This document shows, piece after piece, positions 2,754 through 33,235 of a stretch of DNA of 33,235 nt. The DNA comes from a virus. The stretch is taken from positions 1 to 33,235 of the IMG/VR virus record IMGVR_UViG_3300045967_000012. One strand, 5' to 3'. Positions within the stretch are counted from its first letter, which is position 1, and each line of letters starts with the position of its first letter. The translations under genes were made by a program, and so were the position numbers. The notes under the pieces were generated by a model. It searched no databases, had not been told where the DNA came from, and saw nothing but the letters and a program-made list of their open reading frames with translations.

Positions 2754-3052
2754 GAATTATTCTTCTACTATCGCTTCTCGTGTCCGGTTGTGCAACCACA
2801 TGGTCACAACTAGGATATGAGAAGGTCGGTCCAGTAGAAGCTGAGATATGGCGTAATAACAAGACCGGCTCCTGTGAGAGACGAGTCTATCTAGATTCAA
2901 TGTATTTCCATACTGTGGTGAACTGTGATGATTACAAGGCGAGAATTACTCAAGATGTTCGCGGCTACGCCTTTCCTAGTGACAAGCGCGAGGCCGAAAC
3001 TAAGTCCATCTCCAGAAGTAATACAAGAACGATTTCAGATGGCATTCGATAA
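2750..3052 (+). CDS. Predicted lipoprotein, 100 aa
   Basis: The start is ATG 2750, overlapping the stop of the membrane microprotein. An upstream in-frame TTG would bury the signal sequence and is rejected. MRIILLLSLLVSGC is a textbook lipoprotein signal with lipobox LVSGC, cleaved before Cys14. The mature part is about 87 residues, polar, with two further cysteines (SCERR, VNCDD) and a basic, serine-rich tail. Together with the preceding two-span protein it could form a lysis pair (holin plus outer-membrane spanin-like lipoprotein) or a superinfection-exclusion lipoprotein. It lacks the proline-rich composition of Rz1, so I leave the function open. Confidence 0.7.
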   Translation: MRIILLLSLLVSGCATTWSQLGYEKVGPVEAEIWRNNKTGSCERRVYLDSMYFHTVVNCDDYKARITQDVRGYAFPSDKREAETKSISRSNTRTISDGIR

Positions 3053-4742
3053 AGGGTTCTGGAAACCCAATAAGAAACAGGAACTATTCCTCTCCTTACC
3101 GAATTCCATCTTTGAGGGATTCTACGGAGGGGGTAACGCTTCTGGTAAGTCGGACGTTCTACTAGTCTACGGACTAATACATCGTTGGCATGAGAACCCA
3201 AAGTTCAAACAGGTTTTCATGCGGCGAACTTATCCTGAACTAAAGAATGAAATAGTTCCCCGAAGTCAGGAGATATATCCGAAGTTCGGGGCAGTATTCA
3301 ATAAGACTGATATGTGTTGGCGGTTTCCGCGTCCTGATGAGATTGGCGGTTCAGGCGCGAGGACTGGAGCACACATATTCTTAGGGCATTGCGAGACTGA
3401 AGATGATGCTCATAAATACGACTCAATGGAAATTAATCTCTTTACTCCCGACGAACTTACGACCTTTACTGAATTTATATATCTACATATCGGATTCACC
3501 CGAGTCCGAACTAGCGACTCAAATCTTCCTGCAATCATTAGGGCCGCAGGAATGCCCGGAGGAATCGGGCACACATTTGTTAAGAAAAGATTCATTGCTC
3601 CCTACCCTGCTGGTGGAAAGGTTATTGTCGGAAAAGGAAACGTAAAGCGATTCTACGTCCATTCGACAGTAAGTGATAACCCACACGCGGATAAGGAGTA
3701 TAGCGCAAGACTTGATGGTATTCCTAGTGAGGCCGAACGAAAAGCGAGGAAGTTCGGTGATTGGGATGCTTATCAGGGTCAAGTATTCGATGAGTTCCGG
3801 GATAGACTATATCCTGATGAACCCGATAATGCGCTACACGTAATACAGCCGTTCGATATTCCATCGTGGTGGCCCCGAATGTTTATCGGAGATTGGGGCT
3901 TCGCTGCGATGACCTATATGGGATATTACGCTATATCCCCTGCTAAGCGAATGTTCCTGTATCGTGAACGTTACTGGCTCAAGACTAAGATTGAAACTTG
4001 GGCACCCGAAGTGAAGGCTGACATTGAGCGAGAACAACCAAGAGTTATCAAGTTCTGTCAGTCCGTCGGACAGGAACGCGGGCAGGAACACACTATACAA
4101 CAACAAATCGAAACTGCAATTGGCAGACCTATCGAACTATCTGTTAATAGTCCTGGGTCAAGAATTAGCGGAAAGCTACTACTTCACGAATATCTCAGGT
4201 GGAAACCGAAGCCAATAGTTCCACCTTCTGATATGCCAGTATATTCGGAGGAATATGCCATGTGGCTACTCCGAAATAAAGGCATGATTGATTACAAGAA
4301 TTATCTCGCACTATTCGACCCTCCTGAACCGGAGAGTAATATACCGAAATTGCAGATATTCCTGTGTGATGTTCACAAGATAAGTCACGAGGAATGTTCT
4401 AACTGTTGTCCGCTAATGATTGAATCTATTAAAGCCTGTAACTATGATAAGGCTACTAAAGAAGGGAAGCCTGCTGAGGACGTTGCTCAGTTTGCTGGTG
4501 ACGACCCTTACGATGATATTCGTTACGCTTGCGACTCAGCGGAACGATATTTTGAAACAGCAGCCCAAGAATTTGCAAAAGTTCAGAAGCAGGCTGAATT
4601 AACACAAGCACTAGCGAATAGTCAGGATTGGACAGCCTTCTATCGAAATGCAAGGAAACTAGAATCTACTGAAAGACCTATGCAAGCAGTTTCACGCTTT
4701 CATAGAGCAGGTAGTAATCGTTCTAGGAGATGGGGACGATAG
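3039..4742 (+). CDS. terL: Terminase large subunit
   Basis: This is the ATP-driven packaging motor and nuclease that fills the capsid through the portal. With ATG 3039 as residue 1, the Walker A motif GGNASGKS is at 31-38 and Walker B with the catalytic Glu (NLFTPDE) ends at 139. The RNase-H-like nuclease starts with FIGDWG (Asp 285), and the C-terminal acidic motif DDPYDDIRYA lies near 488-497. Length (567 aa) is normal. The frame stays open upstream to ATG 2928. Starting there would add 37 residues beginning with a Tat-like MITRRELLKMF and overlap the lipoprotein gene by 125 bases. Neither start has a good ribosome site. I prefer 3039 because it overlaps by only 14 bases. The tail (570-605 of the long form) is basic. 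Confidence 0.93.
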   Translation: MAFDKGFWKPNKKQELFLSLPNSIFEGFYGGGNASGKSDVLLVYGLIHRWHENPKFKQVFMRRTYPELKNEIVPRSQEIYPKFGAVFNKTDMCWRFPRPDEIGGSGARTGAHIFLGHCETEDDAHKYDSMEINLFTPDELTTFTEFIYLHIGFTRVRTSDSNLPAIIRAAGMPGGIGHTFVKKRFIAPYPAGGKVIVGKGNVKRFYVHSTVSDNPHADKEYSARLDGIPSEAERKARKFGDWDAYQGQVFDEFRDRLYPDEPDNALHVIQPFDIPSWWPRMFIGDWGFAAMTYMGYYAISPAKRMFLYRERYWLKTKIETWAPEVKADIEREQPRVIKFCQSVGQERGQEHTIQQQIETAIGRPIELSVNSPGSRISGKLLLHEYLRWKPKPIVPPSDMPVYSEEYAMWLLRNKGMIDYKNYLALFDPPEPESNIPKLQIFLCDVHKISHEECSNCCPLMIESIKACNYDKATKEGKPAEDVAQFAGDDPYDDIRYACDSAERYFETAAQEFAKVQKQAELTQALANSQDWTAFYRNARKLESTERPMQAVSRFHRAGSNRSRRWGR

Positions 4743-11725: not shown

Positions 11726-12085
11726 ATGGCTGTTACGTCAGTTAGGACGATTGCTATCACCTTCAGTGGTGATATTAACGCCACTAATTCTCTGCCCTCA
11801 GCGCCGAGTGGTGTTTCACCCGGTAGTATAACGATTCATTCGTTAGCTCCGGGTGATAATACTATTGCGCTACCAACGGGTGGGAGCACCCCTGTAGGAG
11901 CCACGATTATTCCTCCTTCTGGTAATCCTAACGCACTAACTTTGAAAGGTGTGGGCGGCGACACAGGAATCAGATTAGGTAAGACTGACCCTACTAGCTT
12001 AGCCTTCGACACAACTGCATTACCAGCAAATATCGTCATAAATGCTGCGACCACCACTACTGGTGTTCGTATCATTTGGACGTAA
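11726..12085 (+). CDS. Head decoration-type beta protein, 119 aa
   Basis: This short protein precedes the major capsid gene. Its start MAVTSVRTIAITFSGDI and its repeated strands with SLAPGDNTIALPTGG, AATIIPP-type turns and a final GVRIIWT are typical of small all-beta phage proteins. Such proteins are found beside capsid genes in many uncultured podoviruses. It contains no cysteine and almost no charge. A decoration protein or minor head fibre is the likely role. It could instead be a head-tail joining factor. The stop lies ten bases before the GTG of the capsid gene, which has its own strong ribosome site. Confidence 0.68.
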   Translation: MAVTSVRTIAITFSGDINATNSLPSAPSGVSPGSITIHSLAPGDNTIALPTGGSTPVGATIIPPSGNPNALTLKGVGGDTGIRLGKTDPTSLAFDTTALPANIVINAATTTTGVRIIWT

Positions 12086-12095
12086 GGAGTTACCT

Positions 12096-13346
12096 GTGGC
12101 TGTTGTAGAATCCCAGGTAGCGGCACTGGAACTCGAAAGAGTTATTCCAAAAATCCGCGTTCTGTTTGAGCGGGACGATAAATTCTACGCCAACATCAAG
12201 AAGCGTGACGTAGAAAAAATCTCCAACAGACAGATGAGGGTTCCATTGGAATTGCGTCCCGGTGGTTCGTTTGGATATTTCAATCCAGACGGTGGCGACC
12301 TTGGACGTGGTGGTGGCCCTACTTTTGACAAAGCTGTTTTGACTTCTGTATTCGTGTCCGAGAACATTGAATACACTAAGCTCACTCAGTGGTCCACTGA
12401 TGATGAGCGGAAGGCTATTACTAACGGTGTCCGTCGTCTTACGGCTACCGCACTTGATGAACTGCGCAGACAGTTGGATTCTCAGATGATGCAGCCCGGT
12501 AACGGTGTTATCGGAACTGTCACCACTGACACCCCTGCTGGCGGTTCTAACGTGATTACGCTGACTACTGATGGTTTCGGTGCGCGGTTGATGAGATTTG
12601 GACAGACTGTCCAGGTTTTCAACGCTGCTCTTACCGTGAACCGTGGTAGCGGTGTTATCACTCAGTGGGATGTGGAGAATAAGACTATCTCCATTACCCC
12701 ACAGATTGCTGGCGTTATCGCCACTGACGTGATTGTCACGAATGGTATTAGCTCGCCTACTAGCCTTCCGGCTCTGTATGGTGTGCCGTATCATCACAGT
12801 AACGCCAGCACTGGCACTTGGCTCGGCTTCTCGCGTGCAGCTACGCCTGAAATCAGAGCAAATCGTGTTAACGCGAATTCCAATCCCCTCTCATTGCCTT
12901 TCCCCCGACTGGCGATGAATAAGATTGGAAATCGTGTTGGAATTGACAATACGTTCAAGCCCAAGGCTTGGATGCATCCTTGTCAGGAACAGGCTTACGA
13001 GGAAATCGGACAGCTTGTTTCCATTATTCAGAAGGTTGCCAAGGACGAGAAACTCAACATGTATTTCGGCGGCGACAAGCAGATGGCTGGCGCTGACGTT
13101 ACATGCTCGTTCAACTGGAACCAGACTCGTATTGACTTTGTAGTAGATGAAGTTTGGGGTCGTGGAGAAATCCTCCCCATCGGATTCTACACTACTGATG
13201 GACGTAGAATCTTCGAGATTCGCGCTCCTTCAGGTGGTGTCATGACTGCTGACATCTTCTATATGGTCAATGGTATGCAGACGTTCGTGTCGAATCCTGC
13301 TGCCTGCGCCTATATCGATGTGTTGGCTGTCCCGGCTGGATACTAA
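12096..13346 (+). CDS. Major capsid protein, HK97 fold (probable)
   Basis: The start chosen is GTG 12096: AAGGAG lies six bases upstream, and the frame open further upstream overlaps the previous gene without a ribosome site. The 416-residue product has an N-terminal helix (SQVAALELERVIPKIRVLFE), a loop-like segment rich in G (RPGGSFGYFNPDGGDLGRGG, residues about 51-70) and a spine-like helix region (RKAITNGVRRLTATALDELR). Beta insertions follow (GVITQWDVENKTISITPQ), then a C-terminal A-domain-like part. Length and position after the scaffold fit an HK97-fold capsid protein. It would be among the most abundant products, and a terminator follows two genes later. Confidence 0.87.
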   Translation: MAVVESQVAALELERVIPKIRVLFERDDKFYANIKKRDVEKISNRQMRVPLELRPGGSFGYFNPDGGDLGRGGGPTFDKAVLTSVFVSENIEYTKLTQWSTDDERKAITNGVRRLTATALDELRRQLDSQMMQPGNGVIGTVTTDTPAGGSNVITLTTDGFGARLMRFGQTVQVFNAALTVNRGSGVITQWDVENKTISITPQIAGVIATDVIVTNGISSPTSLPALYGVPYHHSNASTGTWLGFSRAATPEIRANRVNANSNPLSLPFPRLAMNKIGNRVGIDNTFKPKAWMHPCQEQAYEEIGQLVSIIQKVAKDEKLNMYFGGDKQMAGADVTCSFNWNQTRIDFVVDEVWGRGEILPIGFYTTDGRRIFEIRAPSGGVMTADIFYMVNGMQTFVSNPAACAYIDVLAVPAGY

Positions 13347-14016: not shown

Positions 14017-14049
14017 GGGGGCTACTCATTGTGGGTAGCCCCCTCTTTT
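14017..14049 (+). terminator. Strong rho-independent terminator after head genes
   Basis: An 11-bp stem (GGGGGCTACTC with GGGTAGCCCCC, one wobble pair) has a 5-base loop ATTGT and is followed by TCTTTT. It begins eight bases past the stop of the last head gene. With no promoter visible downstream it probably lets only part of the polymerases through to the tail genes. Confidence 0.88.
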
Positions 14050-14061
14050 GGAGGGACTGTG

Positions 14062-14595
14062 TTGATTAACTTATCTAATGCCGTAAATATCAAGGGCTAT
14101 ATGTTTGAAAACGAGCTAGAGTGGTTAGCTCGAACTGCTAAGAAATCAAAGTGCATCGTAGAAATCGGCACATACTATGGAAGGAGTGCTAGAGCACTTG
14201 CAGACAACACAGACGGAAAAGTCTATTGTATCGACCCCTATCCAGGGGTTGTATTCTACCAGAATGGGGTCAGTGCTATCTCGTCTGGGTCATACGTTTA
14301 TCGTCAGGCTCAGAAGAATCTCGCTGAACACATATCATCTGGCAAGGTTCTTATTCATAGGGGAACCATAGAGGATTTCCCGCACTTCATTGACCCAGAC
14401 TTCATCTTTATTGATGGCGACCATTGTGAGGAAGCCGTCAGAAAAGATGTGGATTGGGCTAAAAGAATGGTATCGAAAGGTATCATCTCCGGCCATGACT
14501 ATGAAAACATAGGCTGGCCCTGTGTAAAACAAGTAGTCGATGAAAATTTCCCAACTATTGGGAGGGAAGGATTTATCTGGTGGACACAAAAGTAA
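14062..14595 (+). CDS. Class I SAM-dependent methyltransferase
   Basis: GGAGGG at 14050-14055 points to a start at TTG 14062 (six bases away) or GTG 14059. ATG 14101 is a weaker option. The SAM-binding loop is VEIGTYYGRSARAL (residues about 33-46) and the acidic end of the next strand is YCIDPYP. The motif DFIFIDGDHCEEAVRKDV matches the DGDHxYExVxxD pattern of the Methyltransf_24 class of small-molecule and sugar methyltransferases. GIISGHDY follows. The gene begins right after a terminator and ends overlapping a glycosyltransferase gene by 16 bases. The pair could make a methylated sugar for the virion or host envelope. The target is not visible from sequence. Confidence 0.85.
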   Translation: MINLSNAVNIKGYMFENELEWLARTAKKSKCIVEIGTYYGRSARALADNTDGKVYCIDPYPGVVFYQNGVSAISSGSYVYRQAQKNLAEHISSGKVLIHRGTIEDFPHFIDPDFIFIDGDHCEEAVRKDVDWAKRMVSKGIISGHDYENIGWPCVKQVVDENFPTIGREGFIWWTQK

Positions 14596-15416
14596 TGATT
14601 GCGGTGCCAACCTGTGAAATGGCGAAGCACTCAGCATTCTACGACTATTTCAATCTACTTCAAAAGCCCGAGGGAACTGTTGTAACTCTTTCACATGGTC
14701 AGTCTCCAGCATCGGGACGAAATACTTGCATTGAACAGGCATTGGAGCATGATTGCACACATATCCTGTTCATCGATGATGATATGGTGTTTCCACCGGA
14801 TGCACTTTATCGTCTACTGAAGCATGATGTAGATATCGTAAGTGGATACTATCTCATGCGTCAGTATCCTCATCAGGGACTTATCTTCGACCAAGCGGAA
14901 CCATCTGGTGAATGCCGCTGGTATGAAGTAGAAGATAACGAATCTGGTCTGCGTGAAGTTGTAGCCGCTGGACTAGGATTCGTTCTATTCAGAACCTCAG
15001 TTTTTGAGGCACTAGAAAAACCCTACGTTCGATTGGGTGAATTGGAATCTTGCAGAGATGGCTGGTGTGATGATATCGGCCTCTTTAAGCGCGTGCGCGA
15101 GGCAGGATTCAAAATTCATATGGATTTGGACCTTCGTATTGGTCACATTTCCAGTATGGTGGTTACACCAATGCATAAGGACGGTTTCTGGTATGTAGAA
15201 ATCGGAACCTTTACTCCTGAAACTGTAGCATTTCCAATGGTTCGGAAGCCTAAACCTGCTGCAAAGGAAATGACTATTGAAGATATCTCCAAGCGTTTAG
15301 GGGAGATTATTCAGAATTACGGTGGTATGGAGTCGAATATTCCTGTGGACTTGTTGAATCCACATGAATACTGGACTCTCAAACGACAACTGACCGCAAT
15401 GATGGCACCTAAATAA
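14580..15416 (+). CDS. GT-A fold glycosyltransferase-like protein
   Basis: GTG 14580 is preceded by GGGAAGG and overlaps the methyltransferase by 16 bases; ATG 14595 is an alternative. An N-terminal strand VMIAVPTCE is followed by SGRNTCIEQAL (residues 45-55). The nucleotide-sugar and metal motif ILFIDDDMVFPPDAL gives Asp 66-68. A later acidic WCDDIGLFKRVREAGFKIHM (162-181), with HIS near 189, matches the acceptor and second metal region of GT2-like enzymes. The C-terminal 70 residues are an extra helical part. It would transfer a sugar from a nucleotide donor. With the methyltransferase it forms a small modification cassette inside a structural operon, so the likely target is a virion protein or surface glycan. 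Confidence 0.82.
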   Translation: MDTKVMIAVPTCEMAKHSAFYDYFNLLQKPEGTVVTLSHGQSPASGRNTCIEQALEHDCTHILFIDDDMVFPPDALYRLLKHDVDIVSGYYLMRQYPHQGLIFDQAEPSGECRWYEVEDNESGLREVVAAGLGFVLFRTSVFEALEKPYVRLGELESCRDGWCDDIGLFKRVREAGFKIHMDLDLRIGHISSMVVTPMHKDGFWYVEIGTFTPETVAFPMVRKPKPAAKEMTIEDISKRLGEIIQNYGGMESNIPVDLLNPHEYWTLKRQLTAMMAPK

Positions 15417-23694: not shown

Positions 23695-24064
23695 TATCCG
23701 TAATCTAAAGCAGGATGACCTTCCTGCACTAAGAGCAATACACGAGAGGGATTATCCAGACCTGGAATTTCCTCTCGAACGTGACCTTTACTCTGCTTTT
23801 GTAATCGAGAATGGTCGCGGGGAAATAGTTATGGGTGGCGGCGTAGAACCCATTGCCGAGGCACTACTAGTAACTGATAAAACTAAGAGTCGAATCCAAA
23901 TCGGTAAGGCTCTAGTTGAAGCTCAAAGATTCTGCATGTATACGTGCGGAAGATTTAAAATTAGAGAACTACACGCTTTTGTGACTGACGATGAATATGC
24001 GAAACACCTTATTCAGCACGGTTTTCAGAAGCGTGAGGAAGCTGTCCTTAGGATAAAACTCTAA
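23687..24064 (+). CDS. GNAT-family acetyltransferase-like protein
   Basis: The TTG start at 23687 lies in the end of the previous gene, six bases after AGGGCGG. The 125-residue product begins with a GNAT-like strand and helix (VNIRNLKQDDLPALRAIHER), then AFVIENGRGEIVMGGGVEPI. The C-terminal part HAFVTDDEYAKHLIQHGFQK plus REEAVLRIKL fits the final beta strand and helix of the fold, where a neighbour in front swings back (xxHGFxKxxE). The acetyl-CoA loop (Q/RxxGxG/A) is only weakly represented (IQIGKALVEAQR). Together with the methyltransferase and glycosyltransferase it is a third possible modifying enzyme among the structural genes. Its substrate is unknown. Confidence 0.7.
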   Translation: MVNIRNLKQDDLPALRAIHERDYPDLEFPLERDLYSAFVIENGRGEIVMGGGVEPIAEALLVTDKTKSRIQIGKALVEAQRFCMYTCGRFKIRELHAFVTDDEYAKHLIQHGFQKREEAVLRIKL

Positions 24065-25263
24065 TGGGTAAAAAGAAAACACCCGCCGCACCTAATCAGA
24101 CTGATATCTACAATAGGGCTGTAACTGGCTACAACCAGACACAACAGCCTTCCCAACTCGAAAATGAGATGGGACCAATCAGTCAGAATTTCATGGGTCG
24201 CTTTAATCAGTCTGCTGACCAAGCTAAGGCAGATTATGGCGATATCATGGGTGGCTATAAGAACTTCATGCAGGGGTTCAAGCCATCATACGAGAAAGTC
24301 AACTACCAACGTCCAGCAGAGCTAAACGAGGGATTTGGATATCTCCGCGAGGCAATGCCGGGATACCGGAATTTCGCTCAAACGGGTGGATATTCCGACC
24401 AAGATATTCAAGAATTACGTGCTCGTTCTACAAATCCAGTCCGTGCAGCGTATGGAAATACGATGATGGAATTGGATAGGGCTAGAGCACTAGGGGGTAG
24501 TGGTGGTGCCCCTAACTATATAGCCGCTGCTAGTAGGGCACAACGCGATATGCCCGGTCAACTAGCTGATGCTATGACTGGTATTAACGCCGAACTTGCA
24601 CGAGATATCCGAGAGGGTAAAAAGTTCGGTCTACAAGGAATTACTGGAACTGGTGCCACAATGGGTGGATTGGCTGGAGAGGATGCCTCGCGCTCATTAC
24701 AGGCATCACTCGCTAATCAAGGTGCTGACTTGCAGGCTCAACAAATGGGTATGCAAGGTAGACTTGGTGCCCTTAGTGGTATGCAGTCACTATATGGAAC
24801 TACTCCCGGAATGGCTAATATGTTCGGAAATCAGGCTCTTAACGCATATGGTCAGAGAGCAGGTCTAGAACAGGCTAGAAATCAGTTTGGTCTGGGCTAT
24901 CTTGATGCTCAAATGCGTAGTCAGCAGGCCGCTAACGAACAGAAAGGCCAACCGTGGTGGAAAACTGCACTTGGTGTGGCTGGAACTGTGGCCCCATATG
25001 CAGCTATGGCGCTATCTGATAAGAATGCCAAGAAAGACATTAAATATGTCGGTCGTGGCACTACTTCTAAGATGGCAAAATACCTCAAAGAACTGCCTCT
25101 CGCTACTTGGAAATACAAGGGTGATAATACCACTCATTTTGGGCCTATGGCTCAAGATTTCAAGAAGAAGTTCGGCATTGGAGATGGTAAAACTCTCCAT
25201 CTAGCCGATGTTATGGGCGTAGTCTTGGCTACCGCTCAGGAGGAAGCCAATGGCACTACCTAA
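24064..25263 (+). CDS. Internal/ejection-type protein with C-terminal S74-like chaperone domain
   Basis: The ATG is TAATG-coupled to the acetyltransferase gene. Residues 1-305 are Q/A/G/M-rich, mostly helical and repetitive (TIGGYKNFMQ-like, AARARALGG), as in internal virion proteins. A short hydrophobic segment, WKTALGVAGTVAPYAAMAL, is at about 299-317. The end (318-399) matches the Peptidase_S74 intramolecular chaperone: SDKNAKKDIKYVG with Ser318 and Asp319, then LPLATWKYKG, HFGPMAQDF and LADVMGVVLATAQE. S74 domains normally fold spikes and then cut themselves off at that Ser. Finding one on a helical, non-spike protein is unusual. Position next to two other large proteins suggests it is the first member of an ejection trio. 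Confidence 0.75.
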   Translation: MGKKKTPAAPNQTDIYNRAVTGYNQTQQPSQLENEMGPISQNFMGRFNQSADQAKADYGDIMGGYKNFMQGFKPSYEKVNYQRPAELNEGFGYLREAMPGYRNFAQTGGYSDQDIQELRARSTNPVRAAYGNTMMELDRARALGGSGGAPNYIAAASRAQRDMPGQLADAMTGINAELARDIREGKKFGLQGITGTGATMGGLAGEDASRSLQASLANQGADLQAQQMGMQGRLGALSGMQSLYGTTPGMANMFGNQALNAYGQRAGLEQARNQFGLGYLDAQMRSQQAANEQKGQPWWKTALGVAGTVAPYAAMALSDKNAKKDIKYVGRGTTSKMAKYLKELPLATWKYKGDNTTHFGPMAQDFKKKFGIGDGKTLHLADVMGVVLATAQEEANGTT

Positions 25264-26551
25264 CTTCTTCCAAAATGGGTTGGATATGTTGAGGATGAAG
25301 AACATCTTTCAGCCTTCTCCAACATATCCTACTCCTATGGGTGGGCCTACGCCCCCTCAACCAATGGAATTACCGAATATTCCTGTCCAATCAGGACTAC
25401 CAATGCAACAGCCTGAATTCGATGTAACTTCTCGAATGAAGGAACTATATCAGCCACAAACGGCTGCTACTGATAGATACGAACAGCTATTGGGCCAGTA
25501 TCCAGAATACGAAAAACCGGGTTTTTGGCGTAGTGCGGCTGCTGCATTGTCAGCATTCGGACCTGGTGGACATGATACGGGCATGAAAGTAGCTCAATGG
25601 AATAATTCTCGTAGAATGGAAGATTGGAAGAATCAAGTAACTCCTGCTTATCAGGCTGCAAACCTCGAAAGACAGGAAAATATCAATGCTCGTCAACTAG
25701 CCCATAATACTGTTCAAAATGAAGTAACTATGCGTCGAAATGAGGCAACTGCGAGGAATCAGGAAACACAGAATAAGATTCGCCAGCAGCGTGCAGACGC
25801 ATATGATTATAGGGTGCGTAATCCTAATGTGAAATTCGACTTTAATGGTCCTCGCGTTCGTATTCTGGACCCCGGAACTGGTCGAATCACTGAAACTAGT
25901 TGGGAATCCAAGGATTTCACTCCTCAGGAGAAACTTGAACTTGAGCAGAAAAATGCTCTTGAGAGGATTGAAAAAACTGGTGAACAAGCTAGAAAAACTG
26001 AAGAAACACGCCAAGAAGGTAGAACTGATATTGCTGAAACCCGAGGGTGGAAGCCATATACAGATGCCGAAGGCAAAGTATTCATGTATAATGAAATAAC
26101 TGGTGAAACTAGGGATAGGGCACAATCTCCGCAAGGAACTCCTACTCCTAGACCAAGTGGTGCAGCTAATAGACCAGAACTGGCTACACAAGCTAAGGTT
26201 CGTCACTATAATGCTGCAATAGAGTTCAAAAATAGGAATCCAGAACTAGGCAGATGGGTTACTCCTGGTGCTGGAAATACCTTCACTATTAAGCCTCCTA
26301 AAACAGGCACTTTTGGCAGTGGTCCGTCACCACAACAGTATGAAATGATTGTTAATGAGATTTATGGTCCAGACGGACCTCCACAAGAAGAAGCTACACC
26401 ATATCAGTCATCAGGACCGGGTGGTGGTAGGGGTGGTGGTTCTGGTCGTCAAGGTGGGCCTAGATTTACACCGAATAGTCCTCCACAAGCTCCACAAGGC
26501 TGGAAATATGTCCCGAAAAAGGGTGGTGGTTGGACTGCTGTTCCGGGCTAA
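25250..26551 (+). CDS. Internal/ejection-type protein, 433 aa
   Basis: CAGGAGG precedes the ATG, and the start overlaps the S74 gene by 14 bases. The N-terminal 60 residues are proline-rich and probably disordered. Residues about 85-260 form long charged helices (ERQENINARQLAHNTVQNEV; QEKLELEQKNALERIEKTGE), and there is a strand-like interlude with TDAEGKVFMYNEITGETRDR near 272-291. The C-terminal region (about 350-433) is rich in P and G with a GRGGGSGRQGG stretch, ending WKYVPKKGGGWTAVPG. It has the build of a T7 gp15-like internal core component. The call is by position and composition; no motif is diagnostic. Confidence 0.68.
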   Translation: MALPNFFQNGLDMLRMKNIFQPSPTYPTPMGGPTPPQPMELPNIPVQSGLPMQQPEFDVTSRMKELYQPQTAATDRYEQLLGQYPEYEKPGFWRSAAAALSAFGPGGHDTGMKVAQWNNSRRMEDWKNQVTPAYQAANLERQENINARQLAHNTVQNEVTMRRNEATARNQETQNKIRQQRADAYDYRVRNPNVKFDFNGPRVRILDPGTGRITETSWESKDFTPQEKLELEQKNALERIEKTGEQARKTEETRQEGRTDIAETRGWKPYTDAEGKVFMYNEITGETRDRAQSPQGTPTPRPSGAANRPELATQAKVRHYNAAIEFKNRNPELGRWVTPGAGNTFTIKPPKTGTFGSGPSPQQYEMIVNEIYGPDGPPQEEATPYQSSGPGGGRGGGSGRQGGPRFTPNSPPQAPQGWKYVPKKGGGWTAVPG

Positions 26552-26554
26552 ATC

Positions 26555-29500
26555 ATGTATCCACCAAAACAAAAACCGCCTGATTTGGATGCTTTTGGTC
26601 AACCTATTAAGTTTGACGAGAAGCCTCCAGATTTAGATGATTACGGTAATCCTAGCACTGAAACACCAGGATTCCTTAGTCAAGCGTGGGGAGCATTAAA
26701 CGAAGGTCTGTGGCAAGCCCCTTCTAGATGGGGTAAGCAATTTGCAGACTGGATGACTACCCCTGAATTGGATGATTCTAGATTTACTGCTATGGCTAAA
26801 GGTGCCATTGGCGGTGCTGGAGAAGGTCTAGGTCAATTAGCTACTGATTTAACCTCGCCACTCAATATTGGCGCTACCGTCGCTACGGGAGGGTCTAATC
26901 TTGCTCTTAGAGCAGGTATGCGACCTGAAGTAGTGAAGGGTATATCTAGTGCTGCCAAACTAATTAGCGGTGCATCAGAAGTTCATGGTGCAGGCGAAAT
27001 TGGCGGTTCCGCGATGGATTTCTTTGACCCAAATATTCCACTATCTGAGACTGCTGCTAGATTTGGTCGTGGAACTGTAGAATTAGCTGGTGGTGAATTA
27101 GGTCGTAGACACGTTCCTAATACACAAGGTCCAGTTCTTAGTAGGGTATGGCCTGACCCTGAAGCGAAAGCTAAAGCGTCAGTCCAAGACCTACTTCCTA
27201 AACTAAAAGATTCTATGGCTAAAGATGCTGAACGAGCATCACAGAAGGCCAAGAATCCTGCATCTACACCTGATTTAACTGGTTCACCTAATGGTCCTAC
27301 TAGGGATGAAACTATAGTTCTGCCTATTCCCTATGATGCTCAGCAAATCAAACAGTTGAAGCGTCAGGGTTATGATTTCATGGGGATTGACGCCAAAACA
27401 GGCGAAATGACCCTATCTAAGAAGGTGCCCATCGACCCCAATTTGAACCAAGGTCAGGGCGACCCAATGATGGCAGGTTCTACTCCGTATGGTCCTAAAG
27501 TTCGAGGATTTGCGGAACAAGTTCTACCTGATGAACAGCCAATATTGCCTTTTAATAGACCTGAGGAATTTACACCAGTTGGCCCCATGCCCGGTCAGCA
27601 GCCGGGACTACCGGATATTGACCTTCCGACGGGTCCAATGGACAGAGGTTTCCCGATTTCCGAGGGGGACGTTTTCGGGCCTCCTGGACCCCCTAGAGGG
27701 CCGTCTGGGGGTGTCCGGTTCGCTTTCATGGACCCCTTCAACTTTCCTGAGGGGCCGGAGCCATTTTATCATTTGGAAGATGGTTCTACGGTATCAGGTA
27801 GGGAATTAGCTAATAGAGGTATTGAAGCTCCACCTATTCCTGATGAACAATTGGGAATCGGTAGGCAGTTTCCCGGAATAGAGGCACAAGAACTAGGTAA
27901 TGTGGGACAGCCCATTGACTTGAATCAGGCTCTAGCTGATATGGAGCTTGATATGGCTAAACCTGTTGGTCGTGGTTCTACACAAGATTTTGCTCAACAA
28001 GTAGACCCCGGACTAGCAGGTCGTAATCTTGAACATCAACTACAGATGATTGAGGAAGGGCCAGTTATGCCCCAAACAGGGCGATATACTGAACCTACAC
28101 CTCCTCAAATGCCACATGAATTTGCACCTGATATACCTATGACTAGGGAACCAGTTGAAGGTGGTTACTCACCTCAATTTGGTGAACAAGTTATGGGTGA
28201 TGAGGGTCCACTATTCTCTCGTATTCCTAAGCCTCAAGATGAAATGAGAACTAATCAGAATCCACGTTGGGTAGAGGCTGAAAATGATGCCAGAATACTA
28301 GGAATTGATACTCGTAATTTCGACAATATTGATGACCTTGAATGGGCTATTACTCAAGAAACTGCACAACAGACTATGCGAACAGGTATGAATCCTTTGG
28401 CAGCAGCTAAAGGTGACATACCACTACAGGCTAAGATTGGTCAGGGTAAGGCCAAAATTGACGTTAATGTTCGTAAGGCAGCAGACGAACTAACTAAGGG
28501 GTATAATCAGCCACTACCCGCCGTCATGGTCCGCGAAGGCTTACAGAATGCCTTCGATGCTACCAAGAAAATGGGTAAGGCTGGTAAGACCTCTATTAGA
28601 GTAGAAAAAGATAGCCTTACCATTAGTGATAACGGTAAGGGAATGAGTCCTGAAGAACTTTATACTGTTTATACCAATCTCCATGAAAGTGGAAAGGTAA
28701 CTGACGAAGGTGCTACCGGCGGTAAGGGTGTAGGCAAGGCTACATTCATGCTTGGTGGTGAACATTTCAATGTAGAGACTGTAAAGGAGATTAACGGACA
28801 GAAAGTCCTTTCATCCTTCTATGGAACACCTGAAGAACTGTTGCAGGGCTTCGATGTTCATACTGAAGTGGTTGACGATAGTGTGCCTACTGGAACTACG
28901 TTTACTACTAAATTCAAGCCTGACCAAGAGGCATTCTATGGTCGAAATATGGTCGATGATATTCTTAAATACAGTCGAAATCTCGATATTACTCTGGATA
29001 CCGACCCATATGGGTATGGTCCTACAGCGAATAAATTCAAGAATACTAAGGTAGACGATAAGTCTATTCTCAAAACTGATGTAGATAGTGGGAATAGTGG
29101 CATAGAGTTGCTCGTTCCAAACGATGTGAAGTTTGGTGAGAATTCTTCTGTCAAAATGGTCTATCTGAACAATGGAATGTATCAGTTCAGTAATCGTATG
29201 TATCTGGATGAGGCCACTAAGGGTATTCCAGACCAGATTATTATCGACATGAACCCGAAGGTTCCTGAGGGTCATGATAACTATCCATTCCCTGTCCAGA
29301 GGGAGTCTATTAAGGAAGGTATTCAGAAGGAAATTGAACAGATTGTTAAGGACAAACTAATCAATCCATTCGCAAGCCAAAAGAAGATAGATTTGGCTAA
29401 ACTATGGGATTCTATGCCTGTCATGAAGAAAGACCCATTGACTGGCACGGAAGTAGTGTTGTTTGACCCCGGTAATAGGCTTACTCCTGAAGAACTAATG

Positions 29501-31825
29501 GAGTTCCAGACTAACCCTGTAATCGTTGGTCTGAACGACTCTATTAACCAGATGGTTAGTGACATTCTGGCTACTACCGAACGACCAAAATGGGCAGCTA
29601 AGGTTAAGAGGGTAGGTATCACTCTTGACCCGACCATTTATGGTATTCATATTCCTGACCCAAGGTCGGCTAAAACTGACCCCTCATCTGCAATTCTAAT
29701 CAATCCATTTGCACATACTGAAGTTCCCGGTGTTGTTGCTGCTGAAGGTAGGATGGACGTTACTCCTATGGATGCAGCACTTGATACTGTCGTAACAGCG
29801 ATGCACGAGGTTGCACACGTAGGGTCAGAGGACCCCAAGAATGTGCCGCCAATTAGTGATGCAGACCTTAATGACCCAAGAGTAGGAAGATACCTCCAGA
29901 CCTACTTAAAACAGGCCATTACACAAGGTGGTCTGGATATGGGTCATGGAATGCCATTTATCCATAGACTAGGAGAGATTTATGCCAAATTCGGGACACG
30001 GAATGGACTCGCTTGGGCCGACATCTTTCAGAAACAACTTACAGACCCAAAGTCTGGGGGATACAGTCCAGAAGTTCAGAGACTACTATCTATCTATACT
30101 GAATCAAGGGGGAGAGCAGCAGTTACAGAAGATATTCTCTCAGGAACGGGAGTTAAGTCAGCAAATACCCCAACCGGAACAGGAAATGTTCCTGGCGATG
30201 ATTCAGGACTTCGAGGAGGAGCTTCTAGGGTTAAGCTCCGACAACAACATGCCTCTCCCGAACGAGTAAAAGCTCTAAAGGAGAAAGGTTTTGAATTCTC
30301 TGATGTGGATAGTGAAGGAAACTTCATATTCACTAAAACTGGTGGTGGACAACCTCCCGGTGGTGGTCCAATATTAGAATCTGAGGTTCCACAACCTCCT
30401 AAGGGTAAAAAGGGACCAAAAGACCCCGAAAAAATTAGTCCATTGCGTGAGGCATTTGAACTTCCTCGCGCTCTAATGTCGGTAGACCCGCCGTTCATTA
30501 CGTCTGCTATGTTCAGGCAGGGACTACCACTAGTAGGAACCAGAGGATGGTTTAAGGCTGCATTCAATCAGGCCAAGGCATTTGGTAGTGACAACTACTA
30601 TAATGCTAGGATGGCAGAACTAGGACAAGACCCACTCTTTAGACCACAGGGTAAGAAACCCGGATGGGCTGAGAGAATGGGTGTTGAAATGACTGATATG
30701 GGCAGTAAATTAACTAAGCGCGAGGAGGCTCTACGGTCTAAAGTGGCCGAAAAGATTCCTCTCTATGGCAGGTATATTAAGGCGAGTAATAGAGCCTTCA
30801 CCCTATTTCTAAATGAACTACGTGTCCATACTCTTAATGACCTAGTTAAGGCAGGTAAGGCTAATGCTATAGCTGATGGTAATAAGATGCTGGACCCATT
30901 CCACAATGAGGTTCTAGCTAAAGAACTAGCTGAGTTTACTAACGTTGCTACTGGTCGTGGACCACTAAAGGTTCAAGTAGCCTATCCTACCTACAGTAAG
31001 GCTGAGGGATTTGGTGTAGGTGCTAAGGACTATGATTTCAAGAGGGCAGGTAAGGTATTAGCAGATGCCTTATTCAGTCCTAAACTACTGACATCAAGAA
31101 TGAAGATGATGAATCCTGCTACTTACATTATGAGTCAGCCACAAATCCGAAAGGAATACACTAAGGCTATGCTTCGGACTATCGGAGCATGGTGGACCTT
31201 CGCGTCAATAGCTGAAATGATGTTCGGAGCTGAAGTAAATAAAGACCCGAATAATGCTGACTATGGTAAGGTAAAGATAGGTGACACTAGATTCGATGCT
31301 GGTGGTGGCTTCCAACAGTGGTTAGTTCTAGGTTCTAGAATGAGGCCAGATTGGATGAAACTACCCATTGAGACTGAATCTGGTATTACTCCCCTAGACC
31401 TAATGACTAACCTCATGGGTCATGGTGGAGGTAAATATACCAGTTCAGGGTCAGGTGAATCCTATGACTTTGGAAAGGGCTATAAGCCCGAAACTAGAAA
31501 AGACATTATGATTAACTTCCTTGCGAATAAGCTACATCCAACCGCGAAGTTCTTCTGGGATGTGGCTGCCGCTAATGAACAGGTTCCGGTCTATGTGGGG
31601 GACAGGATACTACAGATGTTCCTGCCTATGATGGCGGGAGATTTGGCAGAACTAGCAGTTGAAGAACCAGAACTGATACCGCTAGTCCTACCATTCTCCG
31701 GTCTAGGGGGTGGAACTCAGACTTATACGGGACAAGCTAGTAAACCTTCCGTAACCCCATTCATCGAACAGGTTATTCCTGGGATGGAGGGGATTGGGGA
31801 GTGGGATATCCCGTATGGTCGCTAG
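26555..31825 (+). CDS. Giant polyvalent virion protein: GHKL ATPase, zincin, LPD-type C-terminus
   Basis: The 1756-residue product is the largest here and the third of the ejection set. Residues 1-30 repeat KPPDLDxxG; 60-190 are helical with hydrophobic G/A stretches. Residues about 645-800 form a GHKL ATP-binding domain. Its N box is EGLQNAFDA (Glu661, Asn665, Asp668), the G1 box DNGKGM (692-697), the G2 box GGKGVGKATF (722-731) and the G3 box GTTF (780-783). HEVAH (1084-1088) with HGMPFIHRLGEI (1131-1142) looks like a zincin metallopeptidase with a third ligand. Residues about 1310-1620 (QGLPLVGTRGWFKAAF to RFDAGGGFQQW) fit the C-terminal module of large polyvalent proteins. A short strand-turn unit appears twice, at 260-290 and 1233-1262. 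Such proteins enter the host with DNA; ATPase plus protease would act on host targets or the ejection channel. Substrates are unknown. Confidence 0.82.
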   Translation: MYPPKQKPPDLDAFGQPIKFDEKPPDLDDYGNPSTETPGFLSQAWGALNEGLWQAPSRWGKQFADWMTTPELDDSRFTAMAKGAIGGAGEGLGQLATDLTSPLNIGATVATGGSNLALRAGMRPEVVKGISSAAKLISGASEVHGAGEIGGSAMDFFDPNIPLSETAARFGRGTVELAGGELGRRHVPNTQGPVLSRVWPDPEAKAKASVQDLLPKLKDSMAKDAERASQKAKNPASTPDLTGSPNGPTRDETIVLPIPYDAQQIKQLKRQGYDFMGIDAKTGEMTLSKKVPIDPNLNQGQGDPMMAGSTPYGPKVRGFAEQVLPDEQPILPFNRPEEFTPVGPMPGQQPGLPDIDLPTGPMDRGFPISEGDVFGPPGPPRGPSGGVRFAFMDPFNFPEGPEPFYHLEDGSTVSGRELANRGIEAPPIPDEQLGIGRQFPGIEAQELGNVGQPIDLNQALADMELDMAKPVGRGSTQDFAQQVDPGLAGRNLEHQLQMIEEGPVMPQTGRYTEPTPPQMPHEFAPDIPMTREPVEGGYSPQFGEQVMGDEGPLFSRIPKPQDEMRTNQNPRWVEAENDARILGIDTRNFDNIDDLEWAITQETAQQTMRTGMNPLAAAKGDIPLQAKIGQGKAKIDVNVRKAADELTKGYNQPLPAVMVREGLQNAFDATKKMGKAGKTSIRVEKDSLTISDNGKGMSPEELYTVYTNLHESGKVTDEGATGGKGVGKATFMLGGEHFNVETVKEINGQKVLSSFYGTPEELLQGFDVHTEVVDDSVPTGTTFTTKFKPDQEAFYGRNMVDDILKYSRNLDITLDTDPYGYGPTANKFKNTKVDDKSILKTDVDSGNSGIELLVPNDVKFGENSSVKMVYLNNGMYQFSNRMYLDEATKGIPDQIIIDMNPKVPEGHDNYPFPVQRESIKEGIQKEIEQIVKDKLINPFASQKKIDLAKLWDSMPVMKKDPLTGTEVVLFDPGNRLTPEELMEFQTNPVIVGLNDSINQMVSDILATTERPKWAAKVKRVGITLDPTIYGIHIPDPRSAKTDPSSAILINPFAHTEVPGVVAAEGRMDVTPMDAALDTVVTAMHEVAHVGSEDPKNVPPISDADLNDPRVGRYLQTYLKQAITQGGLDMGHGMPFIHRLGEIYAKFGTRNGLAWADIFQKQLTDPKSGGYSPEVQRLLSIYTESRGRAAVTEDILSGTGVKSANTPTGTGNVPGDDSGLRGGASRVKLRQQHASPERVKALKEKGFEFSDVDSEGNFIFTKTGGGQPPGGGPILESEVPQPPKGKKGPKDPEKISPLREAFELPRALMSVDPPFITSAMFRQGLPLVGTRGWFKAAFNQAKAFGSDNYYNARMAELGQDPLFRPQGKKPGWAERMGVEMTDMGSKLTKREEALRSKVAEKIPLYGRYIKASNRAFTLFLNELRVHTLNDLVKAGKANAIADGNKMLDPFHNEVLAKELAEFTNVATGRGPLKVQVAYPTYSKAEGFGVGAKDYDFKRAGKVLADALFSPKLLTSRMKMMNPATYIMSQPQIRKEYTKAMLRTIGAWWTFASIAEMMFGAEVNKDPNNADYGKVKIGDTRFDAGGGFQQWLVLGSRMRPDWMKLPIETESGITPLDLMTNLMGHGGGKYTSSGSGESYDFGKGYKPETRKDIMINFLANKLHPTAKFFWDVAAANEQVPVYVGDRILQMFLPMMAGDLAELAVEEPELIPLVLPFSGLGGGTQTYTGQASKPSVTPFIEQVIPGMEGIGEWDIPYGR

Positions 31826-32814: not shown

Positions 32815-33001
32815 TATCTACTCCTTGTAAATGGTCGGCGTATCGGTCAAGTGCAATCAGTAACATTCTCCGGTCATCACGTTTAGACCAGAATCCACAT
32901 TCAGCGGTGAACATAGCGTATGGACACCGCTCTATATCCTTGACTTTCAACCAGTCGTATTTGTCAAACGGCTTGATTCGGGAAATCTTCTCGCCTGACA
33001 T
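32804..33001 (-). CDS. Small hypothetical protein, 65 aa
   Basis: The frame stays open far upstream, through the cold-shock gene. ATG 33001 is the start I prefer because it limits overlap with that gene to 38 bases, although no good ribosome site precedes it. The product has three segments: KISRIKPFDKYDWLKVKDIE, then CPYAMFTAECGFWSKRDD with two cysteines, then the helix RRMLLIALDRYADHLQGV. No family is recognised. Its 3' end overlaps the Acb2-like gene by 11 bases and contains that gene's AAGGAG site, which couples the two. Confidence 0.55.
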   Translation of the reverse strand: MSGEKISRIKPFDKYDWLKVKDIERCPYAMFTAECGFWSKRDDRRMLLIALDRYADHLQGVDNAN

Positions 33002-33200
33002 TAGCAGCGCGCGGACCTTTGAGAGATTCCGCCTCGTCAAAGGTAACTTTAATAGTTTGAGGATTCTGTCTCTGAAAATCAGAAACCAAGTCCTCCCAGT
33101 GACCATTAAAATCGCTCCTGTGAAAGAAGAACTCCTTTCCCATCGCTTTGATGAAACCGAAGTTCTTGTCTGGCAGCACCTTAACTACGTGACCGTTCAT
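32964..33200 (-). CDS. Cold-shock domain protein
   Basis: GGAGGG lies four bases before the ATG at 33200; a TTG four codons earlier is part of the ribosome site and is not used. The 78-residue product is a single OB-fold cold-shock domain: VVKVLPDKNFGFIKA carries RNP1 (residues 12-17, KNFGFI), followed by EFFFHRSDF (RNP2-like, 23-31). After a longer polar loop come IKVTFDEAESLKGPRAANV and a short tail. It should bind single-stranded RNA or DNA and could act as an RNA chaperone for early phage transcripts. The RNP1 Gly of the usual KG[FY]GFI is Asn here. Confidence 0.85.
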   Translation of the reverse strand: MNGHVVKVLPDKNFGFIKAMGKEFFFHRSDFNGHWEDLVSDFQRQNPQTIKVTFDEAESLKGPRAANVRREDFPNQAV

Positions 33201-33235
33201 CGTTCCCTCCAAAGTAGTATTCCGCGTAAGTAGTT
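33197..33235 (-). CDS. Possible 3' end of an upstream leftward gene (partial)
   Basis: The last 12 codons of a frame that enters from the right edge (NYLRGILLWRER) end in TGA at 33199-33197, overlapping the ATG of the cold-shock gene as ATGA. The overlap style matches its neighbours, but so short a fragment cannot be identified. Confidence 0.3.
   Translation of the reverse strand, partial: NYLRGILLWRER

Follow-up and report, generated by a model that had tools for sequence, protein, structure and literature searches.

The last gene of the late block of an uncultivated phage raises the question of why an ATPase module and a putative zinc peptidase should be joined in one giant polypeptide, and where such a protein might act. 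The window, that is, the whole stretch of 33,235 nt analysed here (positions 1 to 33,235 of the IMG/VR viral record IMGVR_UViG_3300045967_000012), comprises a late (structural) block with genes for TerL (2925-4742), portal-like and scaffold-like proteins, the major capsid protein (12042-13346) and tail proteins. TerL and the major capsid protein are both encoded upstream of the giant gene. No gene for a tape measure, a sheath or a tail tube was recognised in the window. The block ends with an orf of 1756 aa (26555..31825, + strand, as are all features within it). Methyltransferase-like (by eye) and glycosyltransferase-like (PHROG) genes lie within the structural block at 14029-15416 (+), and the right end of the window encodes a cold-shock domain protein (32964-33233, -; Pfam CSD 2e-7).

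The giant gene is directly preceded by two genes encoding candidate ejection proteins, of 399 aa (24064..25263, +) and 433 aa (25250..26551, +). The former, with a weak match to a PHROG of virion structural proteins, ends in a Peptidase_S74 domain (2.2e-8), a self-cleaving chaperone domain better known in tail spikes and fibres. The same order, two genes for proteins of about 400 aa followed by the giant gene, is kept in L003, L036, L049 and L009 and resembles the ejection operons of podoviruses such as T7 and N4, which both have three-gene ejection sets (PMC12633501). The corresponding protein of L009, devoid of the ATPase and peptidase, weakly matched (7e-4) the PHROG 'internal virion protein with endolysin domain' (PHROG 342, T7 gp16-type). 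Family searches including PHROGs gave no strong virion-family match for the 1756-aa protein itself; its late position, the gene order and the weak L009 match suggest a location in the virion. Since the tail and portal genes showed no clear relation to their annotated counterparts in MW202497, it is the set of genes and their order that underlie the assignment to podoviruses.

The ends of the protein constitute a backbone. Its N-terminal region (aa 4-239; 26564..27271), delimited by profile matches and alignment, is common to the proteins of L009 and L010, and its C-terminal domain (aa 1297-1756; 30443..31822) is common to these relatives and to MW202497. Two copies of a helix-strand-strand motif of about 30 residues were found further inside, at aa 259-290 (27329..27424; HMM i-E 3e-16) and aa 1232-1262 (30248..30340; i-E 3e-17). 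The first is followed by a Pro-rich variable linker (aa 291-611; 27425..28387), the least conserved long stretch of the protein, and then by the ATPase and the zincin-like domain, together referred to below as the cassette.

A preliminary description of this DNA had listed GHKL boxes and an HExxH motif in the protein, and all the motifs quoted lie where it had placed them: EGLQNAFDA, the N-box, at aa 661-669 (28535-28561), DNGKGM at aa 692-697 (28628-28645), GGKGVGKATF at aa 722-731 (28718-28747), GTTF at aa 780-783 (28892-28903), HEVAH at aa 1084-1088 (29804-29818) and HGMPFIH at aa 1131-1137. In Pfam the GHKL domain (approximately aa 645-800; 28487..28954) scored above the curated cut-offs of two models, HATPase_c (2.5e-6) and HATPase_c_3 (1.6e-8). 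An alignment of 14 sequences shows no substitution of E661, N665, D668, D692, G694 or G696, and G727 of the glycine box is replaced by Ala in L054 only. The nearest phage family in PHROGs was phage RIIA (1.3e-10), equivalent to generic phage GHKL. T4 RIIA-type proteins carry an N-terminal GHKL domain and a variable C-terminus (PMC7824862), whereas here the domain lies in the middle of a late protein that also contains a zincin; identity with RIIA was therefore rejected.

The family profile compared with solved structures gave HtpG/Hsp90 as the top match (best 1.8e-9), and the 60 listed of 189 matches all belonged to the Hsp90 family; profile-profile comparison with a bacterial Hsp90 set gave 2.1e-12 across the N-domain. 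An AlphaFold2 model of the cassette (aa 613-1206) was built from 7 sequences with a pLDDT of 71.5, and in Foldseek Hsp90 accounted for 50 of its 50 best PDB matches (best 2.5e-11). The alignments with Hsp90 N-M fragments reached 409 columns and several spanned both the N and the middle domains; the TM-scores, normalised by target length, did not exceed 0.45, a modest value that the uncertain domain orientation in the model would lead one to expect. A Bergerat fold is thus present in the prediction and is specifically Hsp90-like, and both the profile and the model comparisons argue strongly that the ATPase is a GHKL domain of the Hsp90 type.

The GHKL and middle domains together span residues ~619-938. 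The predicted fold alone points to an Hsp90-like middle domain (approximately aa 801-938; 28955..29368), a region in which the sequence profile found no match. Within it, R916 and E917 of a YPFxxxRE motif (aa 910-917; 29282-29305) are invariant. The Hsp90 profile alignment stopped short of this motif, whose position and pattern recall those of LPLNVSRE, the loop bearing the catalytic Arg in Hsp90, and R916 is a candidate catalytic Arg. The protein shares with Hsp90, HtpG and TRAP1 the fold of the GHKL N-domain and middle domain and a sequence relation in the N-terminal domain, but the module is embedded in a phage protein and a zincin-like domain sits after the middle domain. It is not a member of the Hsp90 family proper, since the HSP90 family HMM (PF00183) had no match in the 1756 aa and a C-terminal dimerisation domain of the Hsp90 kind was not recognised in it.

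The following domain (aa 940-1214; 29372..30196) is likely to be a zinc peptidase, as judged from its motifs and predicted topology. H1084, E1085 and H1088 of the HExxH motif and H1131 (29945-29947), the candidate third ligand, are the same in all 13 sequences extending into this domain; by composition an HExxH is expected about 0.0006 times per 40-residue window. The HGMPFIH that had been noticed downstream of HEVAH holds up with respect to its first His, H1131, whereas H1137 is R, K, T or Q in several relatives, and the motif was rejected as a two-His ligand. In both AlphaFold2 models the HExxH region consists of a helix, three strands, the HExxH helix and further helices; the zincin core of polyvalent proteins is described as a helix, three strands, the HExxH helix and a C-terminal helix, with Glu as the third ligand (Iyer et al. 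2017, PMC5512222). The second model (aa 934-1756) had no PDB match at E<=0.001 and four viral structure matches, none usefully named, and thus yielded no assignment for the C-terminal domain. Pfam, PHROGs and the fold search with this 823-aa model, which could miss a small domain, gave no known family or solved fold for the zincin. Likeness to SprT/minigluzincin-type zincins is seen in an ILxNPF-like strand before HExxH and in a distant GH third ligand, but the pairwise match with E. coli SprT was weak (hhalign E 0.01, probability 4%), aligning the last strand and the HExxH helix and beating one control protein. The zincin assignment thus keeps its support from HExxH, the invariant third His and the topology; as family models and solved folds were unmatched, we only infer peptidase activity.

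A different giant protein encoded by MW202497 (L005) shares the C-terminal domain and has its own HELGH at residues 436-440, and zincin-like motifs appear to recur on the backbone that carries this domain.

Apart from near-identical copies, a scan with the single sequence returned just one lineage, 80% identical. Scanning IMG/VR with the motif E[GA]LQNA.DA and with a profile gave L042-L053, with 30-79% pairwise identity in the ATPase part, and L077 and L082/L083 came from a scan with a profile of the zincin; first-pass motif matches in L014, L015, L016, L021-L023 and others proved to be unrelated proteins. The ATPase and zincin were found paired in about 15 distinct proteins, all from uncultivated phages, and 13 sequences align across both regions. 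In the 11 relatives with a located N-box the HExxH occurs once and follows the GHKL Glu by 408-433 residues (423 in the window), which directly supports a conserved pairing and spacing. Pairwise distances of the two domains correlate at 0.84, so they mostly co-descend. Named phages searched with four family members did not match the cassette at the sensitivity of these searches; the C-terminal domain matched MW202497 alone, and relaxing E to 10 brought in nothing but generic GHKL matches of the RIIA/topoisomerase kind. Plasmids likewise gave only generic GHKL and no cassette. A genome-collection scan found only an HtpG of Bacteroidales. A search of 148 genomes of that phylum gave no match, but it lacked a positive control and carries no weight.

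The coupling is not obligatory, since the window-type zincin of L080 (residues 951-1208, HEVAH and GH intact) has no GHKL ATPase in the 950 residues upstream, a natural uncoupling of the two activities' domains, and L054 has the ATPase without a window-type zincin. In L054 the Hsp90-like ATPase occupies approximately aa 2771-3116 of a 5245-aa phage orf (L054:1709-17443, +), the contig being 104 kb long; the orf also has HExxH at two other sites, 1807 and 3366, and, by eye, an ART-like sequence upstream of the ATPase.

The cassette and the backbone are also separable. L009 (700 aa) and L010 have the N- and C-terminal backbone without the cassette, whereas L043 and L049 have the cassette without the backbone C-terminus, which is not found elsewhere on their contigs, possibly incomplete. 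L009 and L010 have a single copy of the helix-strand-strand motif, whereas in the window protein and a close relative two copies bracket the linker and cassette and so likely mark the insertion boundaries. This comparison directly supports modular insertion: on sequence grounds, the ATPase and zincin form an insertable, interchangeable cassette on a phage backbone (aa 1-290 and 1232-1756). The preliminary description had proposed either a chaperone-protease injected into the host or an ATP-gated machine in the ejection channel. In the second case the ATPase would power or gate the passage of DNA or protein through a trans-envelope channel and the zincin would open the envelope, in agreement with a backbone placed like the third member of the T7 or N4 ejection set. 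Both kinds of separation just described speak against such a machine, as does the unavailability of ATP outside the cytoplasm, and we consider it very improbable.

A decayed ATPase and peptidase retained merely as a structural spacer could be imagined from L082, in which the GHKL domain (residues 489-836) is divergent, with DKG for DNG in the G1 box and an altered glycine box next to an intact zincin; nucleotide binding by this clamp is possibly impaired. In the other members, however, the catalytic residues are invariant, and all domains of the 1756-aa protein are under purifying selection, with dN/dS of 0.11-0.15 for the cassette against a 76%-identical relative. Degeneration is hardly credible as a general explanation.

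The regions around the cassette bear on a further alternative. The linker motif [DE]x0-2Px[FL][SA][RK], DEPLFSRVP-like and picked after inspection, was seen 18 times family-wide against 3.3 expected from shuffling. Copies often directly precede the ATPase and occur at aa 549 in the window protein (DEGPLFSRIP) and at aa 317, 432 and 496 in L051. At the other side, near the zincin end, lies a conserved but poorly structured tail, TEDILSGTGVKSAN (TEDxLSxTGVKxAN; aa 1191-1204, 30125..30166), seen in the alignment and the models. The linker motif is a candidate processing or hinge site, and the tail possibly a cleavage or hinge segment. The zincin might cut only the giant protein itself at such motifs, whether ahead of packaging, inside the head or once in the host, with the clamp timing the cuts as a sensor of ATP or an aid to folding and no host substrate involved. 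Autoprocessing by zincins has been proposed for polyvalent proteins, but N4 vRNAP has a zincin and is nevertheless packaged without being cut (PMC5512222), and the linker motif, besides its post hoc choice, is missing in several members. Self-processing of this kind is possible, though we would not call it probable.

The late position of the gene is compatible with yet another role, confined to the producing cell, which is rich in ATP. The clamp could maintain the giant protein and the ejection proteins that accompany it in a state fit for folding or for loading through the portal, the zincin trimming them in maturation, and neither would work as an enzyme in the new host. A precedent is DdrB of phage P1, probably processed by a zincin before packaging (PMC5512222), but the cassette-free relatives keep the backbone and the gene order, and we find an assembly role rather unlikely.

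The link to polyvalent proteins made in the preliminary description fits, in that this giant phage protein is composed of many domains, of which the effector domains are exchangeable. It agrees with those of Iyer et al. 2017 (PMC5512222) also in the zincin-like peptidase, the modular swapping and the origin from a portal-terminase phage, and differs in the third zincin ligand (His in place of Glu) and in that no LPD domain of Pfam was found in it. The text of that paper names no GHKL, HATPase or Hsp90 domain, hence the GHKL-zincin pairing is not found there. Another counterpart is N4 vRNAP (gp50), a giant ejection protein of a short-tailed phage, encoded in a three-gene set, of beads-on-a-string build and with an HExxH domain (PMC12633501); the window protein also has an HExxH domain and probably shares the other features. 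N4 gp50 is an RNA polymerase, whereas here an Hsp90-like ATPase is present, no RNA polymerase domain was matched by Pfam or PHROGs in the 1756 aa, and the two have no detectable sequence relation.

The reading that we prefer, with slightly better than an even chance of being right, is that of a polyvalent ejection-type virion protein whose backbone carries an effector cassette, an Hsp90-like ATP clamp with a zincin metallopeptidase, acting in the host cytoplasm. The giant protein would be made late and packaged alongside the two neighbouring proteins of about 400 aa, and would then be ejected into a new host as a string of domains in the manner of N4 vRNAP. In the ATP-containing cytoplasm the clamp may bind ATP, close and engage a polypeptide, as the intact GHKL boxes and the invariant R916 suggest, and the zincin may cut this polypeptide, either a host protein or the linkers of the phage protein itself, the effector then being released from the backbone. 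Of the earlier proposals the ATP-dependent chaperone-protease injected into the host is accordingly the one retained as the best reading, with both injection and activity presumed. Its strictest form, in which an Hsp90-type clamp replaces the AAA+ unfoldase within one polypeptide delivered by the phage to destroy a folded host protein, for example a defence protein, is doubtful. Counted against the preferred reading are the zincin without a family or fold match, the uncoupled domains in L080 and L054, the third ligand being His and not Glu, the missing Hsp90 C-terminal dimerisation domain and the lack of a strong virion-family match.

The open-access literature searched yielded no description of a phage protein that joins a GHKL or Hsp90 domain to a zincin. 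Cargo like N4 vRNAP and polyvalent proteins are already known, and by comparison with them the new element here appears to be the pairing of an Hsp90-like ATPase with a zincin. The known ATP-dependent proteases employ AAA+ ring unfoldases, and to our knowledge none is built as an Hsp90-like clamp with a zinc protease. The existence of relatives with and without the cassette makes its role directly testable. An Hsp90-type clamp wired to a protease, if true, would represent a different design and would raise the question of what Hsp90 clamps do beyond folding, and it would bring a module that uses ATP into the possible cargo of phage injection.
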